DNA from: Thermofilum sp. NZ13
GTDB taxonomy: Archaea > Thermoproteota > Thermoprotei > Thermofilales > Thermofilaceae
Assembly: GCA_002855745.1 (NCBI GenBank)
Contig: NDWX01000002.1
Coordinates: 124,001 to 188,000, forward strand
Direction of reading: 5' to 3'
DNA length: 64,000 nt
Below, in pieces: positions 16,669 to 22,275 of the stretch. Both the position numbers and the translations under genes were made by a program. Numbering within the stretch: position 1 is the stretch's first letter; every line of letters starts with the position of its first letter. The notes below the pieces were generated by a model, which was not told where the DNA came from, did no database searches, and saw only the letters and a list, made by a program, of their open reading frames with translations.

Positions 16669-17316
16669 TTAAAAGTAAGTTTCACGCGTCAGCAGCTTTA
16701 AGTCGCGCGAAAGCTGCTTGGCGATTCCTAGGACAAGTTTCTCCTGCCTTTCGCTCTGAAGCCTGAAGCGCTTAACGAAAGCTTCTCCCTCCGACTCCGC
16801 TTTTGACGCCAAGACTTTGAGGAGCTCGAGCGGGGATTTGTCGTTGTAGGTCTTCTTGAGGGCTTCAAGCTCCGCGATCACGTCTGCCCCCTTTCTCAAA
16901 ACAAGGCCGTTCAGAAGAACCCAGCTGTTCGAGAACGCCGAATAGACCTTCCTCGCCTCAGCTACCCCCCTGTCCGTCAAGCGGATGGAGTTGACGTATC
17001 TCCCGCTCCTGAACTCCATTTTCTCCTCGATGAGGCCCTTCTCTTTCAGGGAGGCAAGGGACCGCTCGATGTCGGAGGAAAACGGGATGAAAACCGAGGG
17101 GGACGCGGAGAGGGGAACATAGGGGTAGAGGAACAGGATGACGTGCAAAACCTCTTCCCCGTAAGAGGGGGTTCGTCCGTCGAGGTACAGCAAGAGAAGT
17201 GTAAAGTCCTCGTGGGTGGGCGCGAAAACCGGCGTTAGGCCAATCTCTTTCGCCACCTCTAGCCGCCAGTCCTGAGACAAGGCTTCACACCTCAACGATG
17301 GCCGCGCCTGGCTCAT
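16669..17316 (-). CDS. Winged-helix protein beside the IS element
   Basis: About 215 residues; function unknown. Visible parts are a helical stretch DFTLLLLYLDGRTPSYGEEVL, a hydrophobic segment HVILFLYPYVPLSASPSVFIPF, a winged-helix core (SSDIERSLASLKEKGLIEEKMEFRSG split around residues 85-110) and a long C-terminal helix region (ELLKVLASKAESEGEAF). I chose the ATG at 17316, about 30 bp after a cttaaagg box; a GTG at 17328 also exists. The first codons lie inside a 67-bp repeat shared with 46.7 kb, so the natural 5' end may have been replaced by the neighbouring insertion. Confidence 0.6.
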   Translation of the reverse strand: MSQARPSLRCEALSQDWRLEVAKEIGLTPVFAPTHEDFTLLLLYLDGRTPSYGEEVLHVILFLYPYVPLSASPSVFIPFSSDIERSLASLKEKGLIEEKMEFRSGRYVNSIRLTDRGVAEARKVYSAFSNSWVLLNGLVLRKGADVIAELEALKKTYNDKSPLELLKVLASKAESEGEAFVKRFRLQSERQEKLVLGIAKQLSRDLKLLTRETYF

Positions 17317-17364
17317 CCACCCCTTCACTTATCCGGGGCCCCCTTTAAGGGTTTTCATGGGCTC
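17299..17364. repeat. Copy 1 of a diverged 67-bp repeat (IS right-end candidate)
   Basis: This stretch aligns with 46706-46773 with roughly three quarters identity: both read TGGCCGCGCC, TGGCTCA, ACCC, TCACTT, CCCC and CATGGG in the same order and spacing. Here it begins about 70 bp beyond the tnpB stop, where the right end and guide-RNA region of an IS605-type element would lie. Confidence 0.55.
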
Positions 17365-17434
17365 CGCGCCTTCGGCCAACCCCGCCAGCTTGCTTGGGGC
17401 TGTGCGGCGGGGCTTGCCTCGGCGCCTCTTCGCC

Positions 17435-18901
17435 TCATCGCGCCGCGCGCGGCACCCGGCGGGCGGCCGTGGGGCCGTGCCGGGAACTGGGGCCGGGGCC
17501 CGCTGGCCTTTCTCTAGTGCCGTGGGTCGGGGCTCTCGGGTGGTTCTGTAGCCAGCTCTGTAGCGTTTCGAGGTGCCTTTCTGCCCTGCATGCCTTTAGG
17601 AAGAGCTTCGCGGCGTTGTAGCACGCTGCCCAGTCCCTGGTCCACTCCAAGCCGCACTTTGGGCAACGGTAGTAGCGCCTCCTCACTTCCACGCCCCAGG
17701 CTCCGCACAGTGGACACTGCTTCCCGCTGACGTTGTTTTCCGGCTGGAACCACTTAGCCCCCTCGTAGAGCGCTAGGTTCTCCAGCCTCTCCGCCACCCT
17801 GAGCAGCGTCCTCTGTAGCTGTGAGCCCCTCAGGGACTAGGCCCAAGGCACGTCCACTACGAGTACGACTGTGTAGCCCTGATCCCGTAGCTTTCTCACC
17901 AGCGCCCTCACCTCCCTGAGCACGCCTCTGATCCAGTCCTCGTTAAGCTTCTTCACCTTCCTGAGGGTCTGACTAGCTATGCGCTCTGCTCTCTCGGGCG
18001 TCAGGTTCATCTTTGATCTCAGCCTCTCAGCGAGCCTCAGCGCCTCCTCAACCGCGTAGCCCCTCCCTTCCCTTTGTAGCCTCCCGACGTCTCTCCTTTG
18101 CTTGAACCTCTGGACGGCCTCACTCCAGCACTTAACCTTGGAGTAGCTACGCATAACAGCGGCGAGGAGCCTCAGCATGGTGGTATTGGGTGGCCCAAAG
18201 ATGCGCTGAGCCAGCAACTTAGCGTCGCTGTCGAATACGAAGGCCACCACGTAGAGGCCGTGGTTGCTATTCACGTCCACAGCAATAACCGCGAGCCTGC
18301 TGTTGCCGTCCCACCACACCTGCTTTGCCACGCGGTGCGCAACGAGGCGAAGCCTGCCCCTCGCGGTGAGCTGCAGCGTCAGCTTCACATCGCCGAACCT
18401 CCGGACGTCCTCGAGCACAGTCCTGATTAATGATGGCTTCAGCCTCAATGCGACGCCAGCGCTGGGGACGCGCAGCTCGCCACTGGAGGCGTCGAGCACT
18501 GCAGCTGTGTTAGCAGTGCCATGAAGCCTGTCGTTGCCGCTGACCACCCTTACGAGTAGCGGCGCTGGCGGCGGTGTGAACTTGACGCGAAGCTTCGACT
18601 TCCCCCTGGCCTCCGCGAGCATCCTCTGCCACTCCACGGCGTACCAGAAGAGGTTCTTCGGTAGCCCTGACGTCTTTGAGGCTTCCTCGATCAGCTCTCT
18701 GCCGAACCTCTCCGGCTCCCTCCTGAACGCGTCGCCGTACTTACTCTCGAGCTCCTCGCTGGCGCGCTCAACCGCAGAGGCAACGCTGAAGTAGAGGCTC
18801 CGGAGCCGAAGCCTCACCTCCCTGCTCGTTTCAACTCTCCAGACCCTGTAGGCGTCAATGGCGTTGTTGCCGTTTTTACTCCCCTTACCCTTCTCACCCA
18901 T
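17435..18901 (-). pseudogene. tnpB: tnpB (RNA-guided nuclease of IS605 type) with one in-frame amber stop
   Basis: From the ATG at 18901 (SD-like ggggtga just upstream) the frame runs 354 codons, meets TAG at 17837-17839, and continues in the same frame for about 133 more codons to 17435. The first part holds the RuvC-I aspartate in IAVDVNSNHGLYVVAF and the region before RuvC-II ending VVLVVDVPWA. The part after the stop holds SLRGSQLQRTLL, the zinc ribbon CPLCG and CPKCG, and the RuvC-III motif TRDWAACYNAA. All else is intact, so a single base change explains the break. Neighbouring genes use TAG as a normal stop, so recoding is unlikely. Confidence 0.75.
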
Positions 18902-19314
18902 AGTCTCACCCCTTTTACTGGGGAGCCGGGCCTCTAGCCGCGGCCCCCGTCCGCCCCCACCCCCGGAGGCGTGAGGTGCGGGGGAGCCGCAGCACAGCCC
19001 AGCCCCCCACAGAGGTGAGATGCGCGGTGTCTCACACCCTGTGAGCCCTGCTGGCAACTGACGCAGTCAAGTCGGCTCGCAACTCAGCGTGTAGTAGCCT
19101 GCAGAGCGCTAGGCGCGTCGGTCAGCATCAGCGTCCACAAGCGCAGTCTCACTTGCTGTGAAGCCCCGGCCTGCCGCGCGCGGCCCCAGGCGCGGGGCGT
19201 CAACGCGGCCCTCCCGCCGAGCCCGCCCAGGCCCGGCGGCGCTTTTGTTGCGGTTGCGGCCCGTCCACCCCCGAGGGCAGGGGGCCGGCTGCCAGGGGGC
19301 GGGGAGCAGCCGAG

Positions 19315-19643
19315 GGCCGCCGAAATCCAACCCCTCCCCCGGGGAGCCTTATCCCCGGTCGCGCGATCCGGGACCTCGGCCCCCAGGCGAGCCGGCTTGC
19401 GGGCGGGCACTACCGGCCCAGCACCCCGCTCGCCCGAGCGGGGGCCGAAGCCGGCACCTTCACGCCTCCGCGTCGCGGCCGGTGGCTCGCGCGAGCCCCG
19501 CTCGCCGCGGCGCCTCACCGGCGTAGCCCGCCGCCCCCTTGCGGGGCCCGGCCTCCCCCTCTAAGCCCAGTCCCGCCACGTCCCGAAGGAGCGTGAGAGG
19601 GTGGGCTTAGAGGGAGAAAAAAGGGGGTTGGTTTTCGGCGGCC
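19315..19643. repeat. 20-bp inverted repeat enclosing 289 bp of GC-rich DNA
   Basis: The left arm GGCCGCCGAAATCCAACCCC (19315-19334) is the reverse complement of the right arm (19624-19643) with a single mismatch, and weaker complementarity extends a few bases outwards. The arms could be terminal inverted repeats of a small MITE-like element or the closing helix of a large RNA. No flanking direct repeat stands out. Confidence 0.6.
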
Positions 19644-19895
19644 CCGGCCCTCTGGCTCCGCCGCCTCTCCCCCCTAAGCGCTAGCGCGCTGGAGGCGGTG
19701 CAGCCTAGGTGCCCGGGGCCTCTGACTTGATTCGAGCTGTTTTGCCCCCCCCGTCCCACTATCTTTTCCCCGAGAGTGCAGACGCCCCTCTTCCCCCTTT
19801 GACGGGCGCCAGTTTTCTCGGGGAAGCACGGTGTAGCCCGCGCCTCCCTGGCCGGGTCACAGCTCACCGGCCAATGCCTACGGCAACGGGCCTCC
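19617..19895 (-). ncRNA. Candidate structured RNA gene of about 280 nt, family not identified
   Basis: On the minus strand a TATA-like aaatattaac (19918-19927) precedes, and a T6 tract (19617-19622), a normal archaeal terminator, follows. Between them lie strong helices: GGCCGG/CCGGCC (19850-19855 with 19867-19872); a 10-bp perfect stem TTCCCCGAGA/TCTCGGGGAA (19766-19775 with 19816-19825) with an inner 7-bp stem (19781-19787 with 19804-19810) that has a G:U pair only if read from the minus strand; and an 80-nt arm stacking 19640-19647/19713-19720, 19654-19657/19702-19705, 19661-19667/19692-19698 and 19677-19681/19686-19690. I looked for RNase P and SRP signature sequences and did not find them. 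Confidence 0.45.
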
Positions 19896-20027
19896 ATACC
19901 CACCTTGGACAAAGAGGTTAATATTTGTTCCGATGATTACGCCGAAAGTATAACACTGTTACAGTAACCATCGCGATTTCAGGGGTTTTCCAGCAAGCAA
20001 CTGCGGCTGCTTCTTCCGCGCCTAAGG

Positions 20028-20399
20028 CTACGTCCGCAGGGCTAGGATATGCTCGCACATCGCCACCGTCATGCTGTGGCGGAGGTTAGCTCCGGCTGCG
20101 CGCCGGATAAGCCTCAAGGCAGTATCGCCGCACACCACCTCCTCGAGGCTGTAGCCGAGCAGGGCGAGGAGGCCGCAGGCCCTCTCGGTGAGGTAGACGT
20201 AGCGCGTGTCGCCGACCGCAGCTTCTTTGACGAAGCCGGCTGAGCGAAGCCTCTCCAAAGCGGAGGCTATGTACTTTGTGTTCCTCATGGCGAAGGCCCT
20301 GCTGAGGGGCTTCGGCTGCCTCAGGCGCCACAGAGCCTTTGCGAGGCCGGTCAGCTCAAGCCGCCTCGCCACGCCCCCAGATCTCGCTGTTGACCTCAA
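20028..20399 (-). CDS. Small winged-helix regulator
   Basis: A protein of up to 123 residues with one winged-helix domain: LTGLAKALWRLRQPKPLSRA, MRNTKYIASALERLRSAGFV as recognition region, and wing KEAAVGDTRYVYLTERACG, followed by a helical tail with LSLEEVV-like sequence. It resembles archaeal MarR/ArsR-type regulators. The first 44 bp overlap the end of the upstream surface-protein gene in another frame; a GTG at 20372 would reduce the overlap to 17 bp. The pair is probably co-transcribed. Confidence 0.65.
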   Translation of the reverse strand: MRSTARSGGVARRLELTGLAKALWRLRQPKPLSRAFAMRNTKYIASALERLRSAGFVKEAAVGDTRYVYLTERACGLLALLGYSLEEVVCGDTALRLIRRAAGANLRHSMTVAMCEHILALRT

Positions 20400-22275
20400 C
20401 GATGTGTGGTGACTCTTTCTTAAAACCTTTAGCTACTCTCCTCACGGCAAGCACGACGAACAGTATGAAGAGAATAAGGAGCGCGAACTCCACGTGGCTT
20501 GTCGTTATCGTGAGGCCGGAGAGGCAGGCGATCACATCCAGCTCGACGAGCTTGAAGGAGTCAGACTCAATGGTCAGGTTGAGCGTGCGTTCCCCGATAG
20601 CAAGCTTGTACGAGCCCCTAGGGATGAGGCCAAAGTCTGCGCGCCCTGAGCTATCTGTGACCGCTTCTCTCCTTACACCCGCACCTGTCAGCGAGACCTT
20701 AAACCCGCTGAGAGGCTGGTTGAGCGCTCCTACTAACTGCACTCTCAGGCGGTACACCGGTATCGAGAGGACGAAGGTGTTTTGCAAGTCGGACACCTCA
20801 ATCACACCTGTGAAGACCTTGTCGCCAGACACGTATACCTCGTAAGTGTAAACGCCCGGGAGAACCCCTTCGATCCTTGCCTTCCCACTTAAACCCTCAG
20901 CGGAGTAGTTCACCGCGCCGCTTCGAAGGAACAGCGTGAAGTTTTCTATCAGTTCCCCGCTTCCAGTGCGGAGCAATGTCACCTGTACACCAGTCGTATT
21001 GGTGATTATGGGTAGGTAAGCATCGCCAGTCATTTTTACGCTGGTCTTAGCTATGACGCTGTTTGCCAGGTAAGCCACGATAATGTACTCCCCCGGAGGT
21101 AACGGGCACACCAGGCCCTCTCCGTCCTTGACTGCTCCCGCGGTGACGACCCTCCCGCTTGAGTAGACTGTGAAGTAGGCGTTACGGACGCGCCCGCCCG
21201 TCTTATCGTAGAGGGTGAAGCCGAGCGTATATAGTGGCGGTGACACCGAGAGCGTGGGCGGGGGAGTCGTCACCACCACGTCCACCAGCGAGACTCCTCT
21301 AGCGAAGAATCTGAACGTCAAGGTGGTGTTGTCACCGCTCAGGGTTACAGCTCGCCCAGAGGGGCCTAGCTTTAGCGACTGCCCCAACACACGGTAGGTG
21401 AGGTCCGTAGCTCCGCACAGGCTACTCGGCTGCTTCACATCGAGGCTCACGCTGTAAGATACCCTCGGGAACTCTACCTCGGATGAGTTTACCGCCGCGA
21501 GGATGACCTTGAGAGGGTTTCCTTTGAGAATGTTGATGACCTGCGTGGCATTCATAGGAGCAGGGCTACTGGCGAAGACATACTCCTCGGGGTAGGGGGG
21601 AAGAGGGATCTTGAAGCCGAAGAGCCCCTGCAAACCGTAGAGGTAAGAGTACCGAACGCTTATAAAGCCCCCCTTGAGGCTCACGTTCTCGAACGGCACC
21701 AGGACCTCAAGAACTGTCAGCGTTTCACCTTGGACAGTGATCGTCGACAAGTTCACGGTGAAGTACGGCTTGTCCATTATTCCACTCGTATTGCCTCCGA
21801 GTATTATCACCTCAGCCTTGATGCCTAAAGACACAAAGCCGGGGACACGTGGCACGGTGATGTTAATAGGCCTGGTTGTCGACCCACCTGGGACAGTAAA
21901 GAACGCCAGTACTGGTGTTCTCGACTGCGTATCCGCGTAACGCACGCTCACAGTGTGCGGCAGGCCATCTAACTGCAGGACCACTGTGTACCACAACACT
22001 CCGGTACCCGGGGGTGGAACGTAGCTATAACCGTCGACTTGAACATCCACGGGCTGCTTCCCGGAGGAGGGGTCGTTGCGCACCACAACGATCTTTCCGC
22101 TTGTCGTGAAACTGAGTGTCTCGCCGCTGAAGGACATGTAGGTACTTCGCCACGAGTTTCCATTCCACTCGAGTACTTCAGCGTAGTTTATGTAGAGGAC
22201 TGGAAGAGCTTTTAAAGTAGCCACAATTAGCAGTAAGGAGAGGGCAAAGAGTAGTGCAGTGCGCATGCAAGACAT
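20356..22275 (-). CDS. Membrane-anchored extracellular protein with Ig-like repeats
   Basis: About 639 residues. An N-terminal signal segment (ALLFALSLLLIVATLKA) is followed by a large beta-rich exterior with several prealbumin- or carboxypeptidase-regulatory-like modules (for example GEYIIVAYLANSV, GVYTYEVYVSGDKVF, GRADFGLIPRGSYKLAIG), many Asn-X-Ser/Thr sites, and a C-terminal transmembrane helix HVEFALLILFILFVVLAV followed by basic residues. This is a cell-surface protein with a cytoplasmic tail; ligand unknown. I prefer the ATG at 22275, which has ggggaa just upstream, over a GTG at 22293. Confidence 0.75.
   Translation of the reverse strand: MSCMRTALLFALSLLLIVATLKALPVLYINYAEVLEWNGNSWRSTYMSFSGETLSFTTSGKIVVVRNDPSSGKQPVDVQVDGYSYVPPPGTGVLWYTVVLQLDGLPHTVSVRYADTQSRTPVLAFFTVPGGSTTRPINITVPRVPGFVSLGIKAEVIILGGNTSGIMDKPYFTVNLSTITVQGETLTVLEVLVPFENVSLKGGFISVRYSYLYGLQGLFGFKIPLPPYPEEYVFASSPAPMNATQVINILKGNPLKVILAAVNSSEVEFPRVSYSVSLDVKQPSSLCGATDLTYRVLGQSLKLGPSGRAVTLSGDNTTLTFRFFARGVSLVDVVVTTPPPTLSVSPPLYTLGFTLYDKTGGRVRNAYFTVYSSGRVVTAGAVKDGEGLVCPLPPGEYIIVAYLANSVIAKTSVKMTGDAYLPIITNTTGVQVTLLRTGSGELIENFTLFLRSGAVNYSAEGLSGKARIEGVLPGVYTYEVYVSGDKVFTGVIEVSDLQNTFVLSIPVYRLRVQLVGALNQPLSGFKVSLTGAGVRREAVTDSSGRADFGLIPRGSYKLAIGERTLNLTIESDSFKLVELDVIACLSGLTITTSHVEFALLILFILFVVLAVRRVAKGFKKESPHIVEVNSEIWGRGEAA

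Follow-up and report, generated by a model that had tools for sequence, protein, structure and literature searches.

A pre-16S rRNA leader-like RNA in TnpB-bearing mobile elements of Thermofilum

The mobile element and its genes

The window analysed is a stretch of 64,000 nucleotides from the draft genome of Thermofilum sp. NZ13 (contig NDWX01000002.1, positions 124,001 to 188,000), referred to as G000 in comparisons with other genomes; coordinates are those of the window. On its minus strand lies a mobile element of approximately 3.1 kb, in which a probable wHTH gene and a promoter precede the leader-like RNA; after this come a T-run, another structured RNA domain, tnpB and finally a 3' end that is conserved. 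The element, its flanks and its genes are as follows.

20393..20403 (to 20404), minus strand: left copy of the direct repeat ATCGTTGAGGT, 11 bp (11-12 bp with the preceding C)
17301..20392, minus strand: TnpB-bearing mobile element, 5'-truncated relative to fuller copies (homology to seven other copies, shared right end at approximately 17300)
20028..20399, minus strand: small probable wHTH ORF with truncated N-terminus; intact elsewhere at approximately 114 aa
19147-19162 and 19030-19043, minus strand: palindromes TTCACAGCAAGTGAGA and CACAGGGTGTGAGA, respectively, possible operators
17435..19057, minus strand: tnpB of a divergent family (family A), with an in-frame stop at 17837-17839
17300..17434, minus strand: conserved 3' end, the place expected for a TnpB guide RNA
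17289..17299 (to 17300), minus strand: right copy of ATCGTTGAGGT

When the flanks of the element are joined, the host gene ends naturally as ...SPHIVEV-stop. The repeat ATCGTTGAGGT is possibly a target-site duplication formed at a 5'-truncated insertion; a flanking repeat (11 bp) was found at the window copy and at the ends of none of four other copies. The left end of fuller copies (L022, L023, L027 and L034) was seen to carry a palindrome, GTAGCAATGCTAC, a T-run and a conserved block, TTCCCGTGTTCGA. From its sequence, the small ORF probably encodes a winged helix protein; its orthologues in L027 and L023 gave no significant Pfam match. The pattern CACAGNNTGTGAGA (CACAG..TGTGAGA type) occurs fourteen times in the genome, against zero for the control.

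Sister copies of tnpB are intact and encode proteins of 468-483 aa. The window gene and its copies match PF07282; for family A, the match to the Cas12f1-like TNB domain is no more than weak. The profile match of this family is confined to the C-terminal zinc-ribbon/TNB part, and the usual RuvC-II ED motif is absent, the sequence reading VADVPxAESLxGSxLQRTL (17837-19057; alignment A3). The element possesses the tnpB gene characteristic of the IS200/IS605 type; inspection of the ORFs between its ends revealed no tnpA (Y1 transposase), which could act in trans. Elements of this type create no target-site duplication, a point on which the window copy, with its repeat, and the four copies without one diverge.

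A structured RNA on the minus strand

The original prediction described an RNA-like gene of approximately 280 nt at 19617-19895, and its stems, TATA-like box and T6 tract were all located at the minus-strand positions named there. The feature extends beyond these limits, as both the flanking promoter and a second structured domain (19392-19616) belong with it to one element. In the list below, R1 is a covariance model whose input sequences include the window copy and most of the 16S leaders discussed later, so that the R1 scores of these are not independent; R2 is a model of the second domain built from alignment A4.

19916..19960, minus strand: promoter region, conserved in the alignment; its TATA-like AAATATTA stands 34 nt 5' of hairpin 1 (spacing)
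19918-19927, minus strand: TATA-like box CAAATATTAA
19835..19892, minus strand: hairpin 1 of the leader-like RNA (fold; matched in position by a hairpin in each of the inspected 16S leaders)
19752..19837, minus strand: hairpin 2 core, in common with the pre-16S leader (R1, 85.3 bits; covariation; survey)
19816-19825 with 19766-19775, minus strand: 10-bp stem TTCCCCGAGA/TCTCGGGGAA
19640..19720, minus strand: lineage-specific 3' arm of four stacked helices (G-U-preserving changes)
19713-19720 with 19640-19647, minus strand: 8-bp stem GGCCCCGG/CCGGGGCC
19678-19687, minus strand: palindrome GCGCTAGCGC
19617..19627, minus strand: C5T6 tract, candidate archaeal terminator (T-run in most G000 copies, in G004 copies and in G011)
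19617-19622, minus strand: T6
19553..19615, minus strand: hairpin directly after the T-run (compensatory changes between copies)
19392..19616, minus strand: second structured, GC-rich domain of approximately 225 nt (R2, ten matches in this genome)

For the minus strand the folding energy is -142 kcal/mol, with a z of -2.9 relative to dinucleotide shuffles; the plus strand reaches a better z of -4.9. As energy is low on both strands, the strand was not chosen by folding energy alone but by comparison of copies. Among eleven genomic copies, pairing in the 3' arm (19640-19720) is kept through one-sided changes in twenty-eight cells, nearly all of them giving G-U on the minus strand where the plus strand would have A-C. 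With R1, the minus strand likewise reaches 85.3 bits, compared with 18.7 for the plus strand. The minus strand, as originally proposed, is favoured by both comparisons, and the predicted RNA fold is maintained by compensatory and G-U-preserving changes.

A T6 tract arose in 24 of 5000 composition shuffles of a 401-nt stretch. A T-run of at least five is kept at this position in nine of the twelve copies listed, and T-runs occur 3' of the module in three lineages (G000, G004 and G011). The length of approximately 280 nt had been based solely on this tract, and conserved structure goes on beyond it. R2 found no match outside this genome; the second domain is therefore either lineage-specific or too diverged to be recognised elsewhere. 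The leader-like RNA lies approximately 560 nt 5' of the tnpB ORF.

A search with the covariance models of all Rfam families gave tRNA matches only, and none in the feature region. Archaeal RNase P RNA (RF00373) has no match in the window, and the genome's copy lies at G000:C28:40080-40350 (E 4.5e-18). Archaeal SRP RNA gave no Rfam match at gathering level or at E values up to 5. The feature is like these two RNAs in size only and differs from them in having no covariance-model match. A protein-coding reading was also rejected, as the ORF at 19607-19912 has no family match and indels among copies break its frame; a K-turn or bulge-helix-bulge in hairpin 2, judged by eye, was unsupported. No described counterpart of the leader-like RNA was found in Rfam or in the openly readable literature searched. 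The original proposal of a structured minus-strand RNA without a match among described families is supported.

Relation to the pre-16S rRNA leader

The core of hairpin 2 has the form ACAnnGUGC, helix, AAAC/GnAC internal loop, apical helix, AAGA. The only 16S rRNA match in G000 (C4:31377-32877) is preceded by an R1 match ending 44 nt upstream of the gene, with the hairpin itself ending 60 nt upstream. In G004 and G005, weak matches in a DNA search include places directly 5' of 16S rRNA. Ten Thermofilaceae leaders share one plan, namely TATA, hairpin 1, ACAnnGUGC, hairpin 2 with its AAAC internal loop, AAGA and a stem. Pairing of this stem with the 16S trailer was verified in four genomes; in G000 it is a 21-bp processing stem, at the start of which the module stops. 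The element RNA is alike in the two successive hairpins, in the order ACAnnGUGC-helix-AAAC-helix-AAGA and in the spacing from TATA to hairpin 1 (29-36 nt in elements, 30-35 nt in rRNA operons), so that TATA-like boxes stand at rRNA-operon distance before the module. Hairpin 1 occupies the rRNA-type place but has hardly any likeness to the rRNA type in sequence.

Across twenty sequences, leaders and element copies taken together, compensatory or double changes occur in twelve of fifteen pairs and 97.6% of cells are paired. Covariation scores 0.448, compared with 0.142 in shuffles, which leave relatedness in; the signal is lost on sliding by one base, and the structure finds support in this control and in its occurrence in several genera. 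R1 was matched independently of its input in G009, G014 and G015 and by the second copy of G011; for the window copy the independent test is provided by the DNA search and a pattern search. Covariance model, alignment and identity to the host leader support homology, and by these comparisons the hairpin 2 core is a homologue of the module that, in every Thermofilaceae leader inspected, borders the 16S processing stem on its outer side. The original prediction had looked to paired columns conserved in relatives; they are conserved, with compensatory changes. The 5' half of the RNA is homologous to the pre-16S leader. The element RNA is unlike that leader in what follows (the 3' arm, T-run, second domain and tnpB) and in being dispersed and mobile.

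A DNA search of the genome located seventeen matching places of 74-100% identity, the window included, many of them at contig ends. With R1, fifteen well-formed dispersed copies were counted in G000, leaving out the 16S leader, one antisense match and a palindromic contig end. The last (L130, G000:C5:48436-48519) gave matches on both strands, which arise from a long perfect palindrome that closes the contig and has the leader hairpin at its centre; it is probably an assembly artefact and was not counted. R1 matches were found in 13 of 101 related genomes, exclusively Thermofilaceae, with one copy in most of these, six in G004 and a second in G011 and G009. Dispersed copies are thus present in four genomes (fifteen in G000, five in G004 and one each in G011 and G009). 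Exact-pattern scans of genome and viral contig collections, a TnpB family search in the genome contig collection and blastn against plasmid and phage records each gave zero matches, in sets possibly without close relatives.

Rather than a gene in single copy, the feature is a repeated module of a mobile element, usually with tnpB after it. Among the dispersed copies of G000 and G004 with downstream sequence, tnpB (intact or broken) lies 3' on the same strand in twelve of fourteen; L031 and L129 have none behind them. Six copies stand at contig ends of the G000 assembly. These tnpB genes belong to several unrelated families. In G004, tnpB stands behind four of the five dispersed copies; its genes represent at least three families, and the noncoding region of approximately 700 nt before them is almost the same throughout, which argues that the RNA is kept and not a particular nuclease. 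The TnpBs of L125-L128 in this genome partly have an N-terminal low-complexity tail in common, as though one tnpB had been exchanged for another behind an unchanging leader.

The 16S leader most like a dispersed copy tends to be that of the same genome. For each of the eight G000 copies compared, the closest leader, alone or in a tie, is that of G000 or of its close relatives; for seven it is G000's own (74-93% identity to it), or this in a close tie with that of G004, L036 and L027 being within one percent of the latter. One of two G004 copies compared is nearest its own leader (91%), whereas the second lies at a similar distance from those of G005 (86%) and G004 (84%). L053 of G000 has an apical loop identical, letter for letter, to the one in this genome's 16S leader. 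In G009 and G011, dispersed copies have 48-61% identity to all leaders and helices unlike those of the 16S leader in the respective genome, with structure and loop bases kept. Host-like copies and diverged copies of kept structure together imply that exchange with the host leader and structural constraint both seem active.

Possible roles of the leader-like RNA

As the element has no 16S processing stem and no 16S rRNA after the leader-like RNA, it is not an rRNA operon; nor does the RNA lie at the 3' end of tnpB and run into the right end of the element, as a TnpB omega-RNA does. By definition the predicted RNA is neither of these, yet it is a homologue of a known rRNA leader. To our knowledge, little is known of the function of archaeal rRNA leaders outside the processing stem. 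An element that retains the leader module alone, without 16S or processing stem, is a natural experiment and suggests that the leader is a portable unit. It offers a testable entry to archaeal rRNA transcription control and possibly a new kind of host dependence for TnpB elements.

The preferred reading, to which a probability of roughly 0.4 is given, is that the feature forms the 5' leader of a non-coding RNA transcribed from the TnpB element and that its 5' half mimics the host pre-16S leader in cis. Once transcribed, the module would mark the elongating RNA polymerase or recruit early rRNA-processing factors, as the rRNA leader may do. It would aid the making of the element's GC-rich structured RNA, and might let transcription pass the neighbouring T-run in the direction of tnpB, or make the RNA more stable. 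In pre-rRNA the module is outside the stem enclosing 16S, so that it more likely serves transcription or early assembly than 16S excision; as the element keeps just this module, it probably uses it in cis, to bring the host factors of the rRNA leader to the element's transcript. The arrangement suggests that the elements borrow the rRNA transcription or early-processing machinery of the host. We know of no archaeal rRNA antitermination factor or leader-binding protein for the module, and none was found in the literature searched.

In bacteria, rRNA leader signals are known to be shared by mobile elements, lambdoid nut sites resembling the rrn leader signal. Bacterial rRNA operons carry a boxB-boxA-boxC signal in their leader (PMC10250234). 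The Thermofilaceae module is comparable as an rRNA-operon leader signal with relatives on mobile elements; it differs in consisting of archaeal structured hairpins and not a short box, and the likeness put forward is one of analogy and not of sequence or factors. A broader version, doubtful but possible, is that the Thermofilaceae leader signal marks rRNA transcription complexes, as a functional counterpart of bacterial rrn antitermination sites, and that elements copied it several times, in host-specific versions, to drive a large non-coding RNA together with the downstream genes.

The main rival of a role in cis is a decoy RNA in trans, an RNA of approximately 280 nt ending at the T-run whose leader fold binds or titrates factors of ribosome biogenesis or rRNA transcription, or is packaged by them. 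It would account for the RNA having its own promoter, a defined T-run end and a high copy number, for a leader fold with neither 16S processing stem nor 16S, and for the copies L031 and L129; the T-run could simply terminate the transcript. It is nonetheless unlikely, given the conserved, covarying structure directly 3' of the T-run and tnpB behind most copies. A leader fragment may instead have been captured passively, its likeness kept by recombination with the rRNA operon and the RNA having no function of its own. The resemblance of copies to the host leader, with apical loops sometimes nearly identical, could stem from such recombination, and several elements are decayed (the stop in the window tnpB, truncated copies). 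Passive capture is rather improbable, as in three genera (g1, g5 and g7) the helices have diverged with paired structure and loop bases kept, as promoter spacing and T-run are kept, and as the 3' arm, which the rRNA operon could not homogenise, is maintained by pair-preserving changes.

Like the omega-RNA/reRNA of TnpB (IS200/IS605) and the HEARO/omega-RNA of IscB, the feature is a highly structured RNA beside a gene for an RNA-guided nuclease, in close association and the same orientation, and an IscB-like guide or scaffold RNA located 5' of its gene might be envisaged. This is very unlikely: unlike known omega-RNAs, one near-identical RNA precedes unrelated TnpB families, and it is related to the rRNA leader, the same core occurring before 16S rRNA where there is no TnpB. 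It also carries no guide at the element end, the expected place being occupied by the conserved 3' end. Least probable is a DNA-level feature (subterminal hairpins or a recombination site), to which the position inside a mobile element and the abundance of inverted repeats might point, since G-U forms keep pairs on one strand, the core has its homologue within the pre-16S transcript and a promoter precedes it. The possibility of a transposon end, raised in the original prediction, holds in part, in that the RNA lies inside a transposon-like element but not at its end.

In three G000 copies (L032, L036 and L124), a HerA-type ATPase gene takes the place of the small ORF 5' of the RNA. A HerA/DUF87-type ATPase directly 5' of the RNA was likewise observed in L126 of G004 as well as in these three copies, and in L126 a small ORF, possibly a SWIM zinc finger, lies beside it. 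Such neighbours in two species hint at a larger plasmid-like or conjugative parent element. Lastly, there is a likeness between the 3' end of the G000 elements, GGCCCCGGATCAGTGAAGGGG (17300-17340), and the apex that hairpin 1 has in the G011 leader-like RNA, GGCCCCCGATCAGTGAAGGGGGC (L131, approximately 2400-2450).
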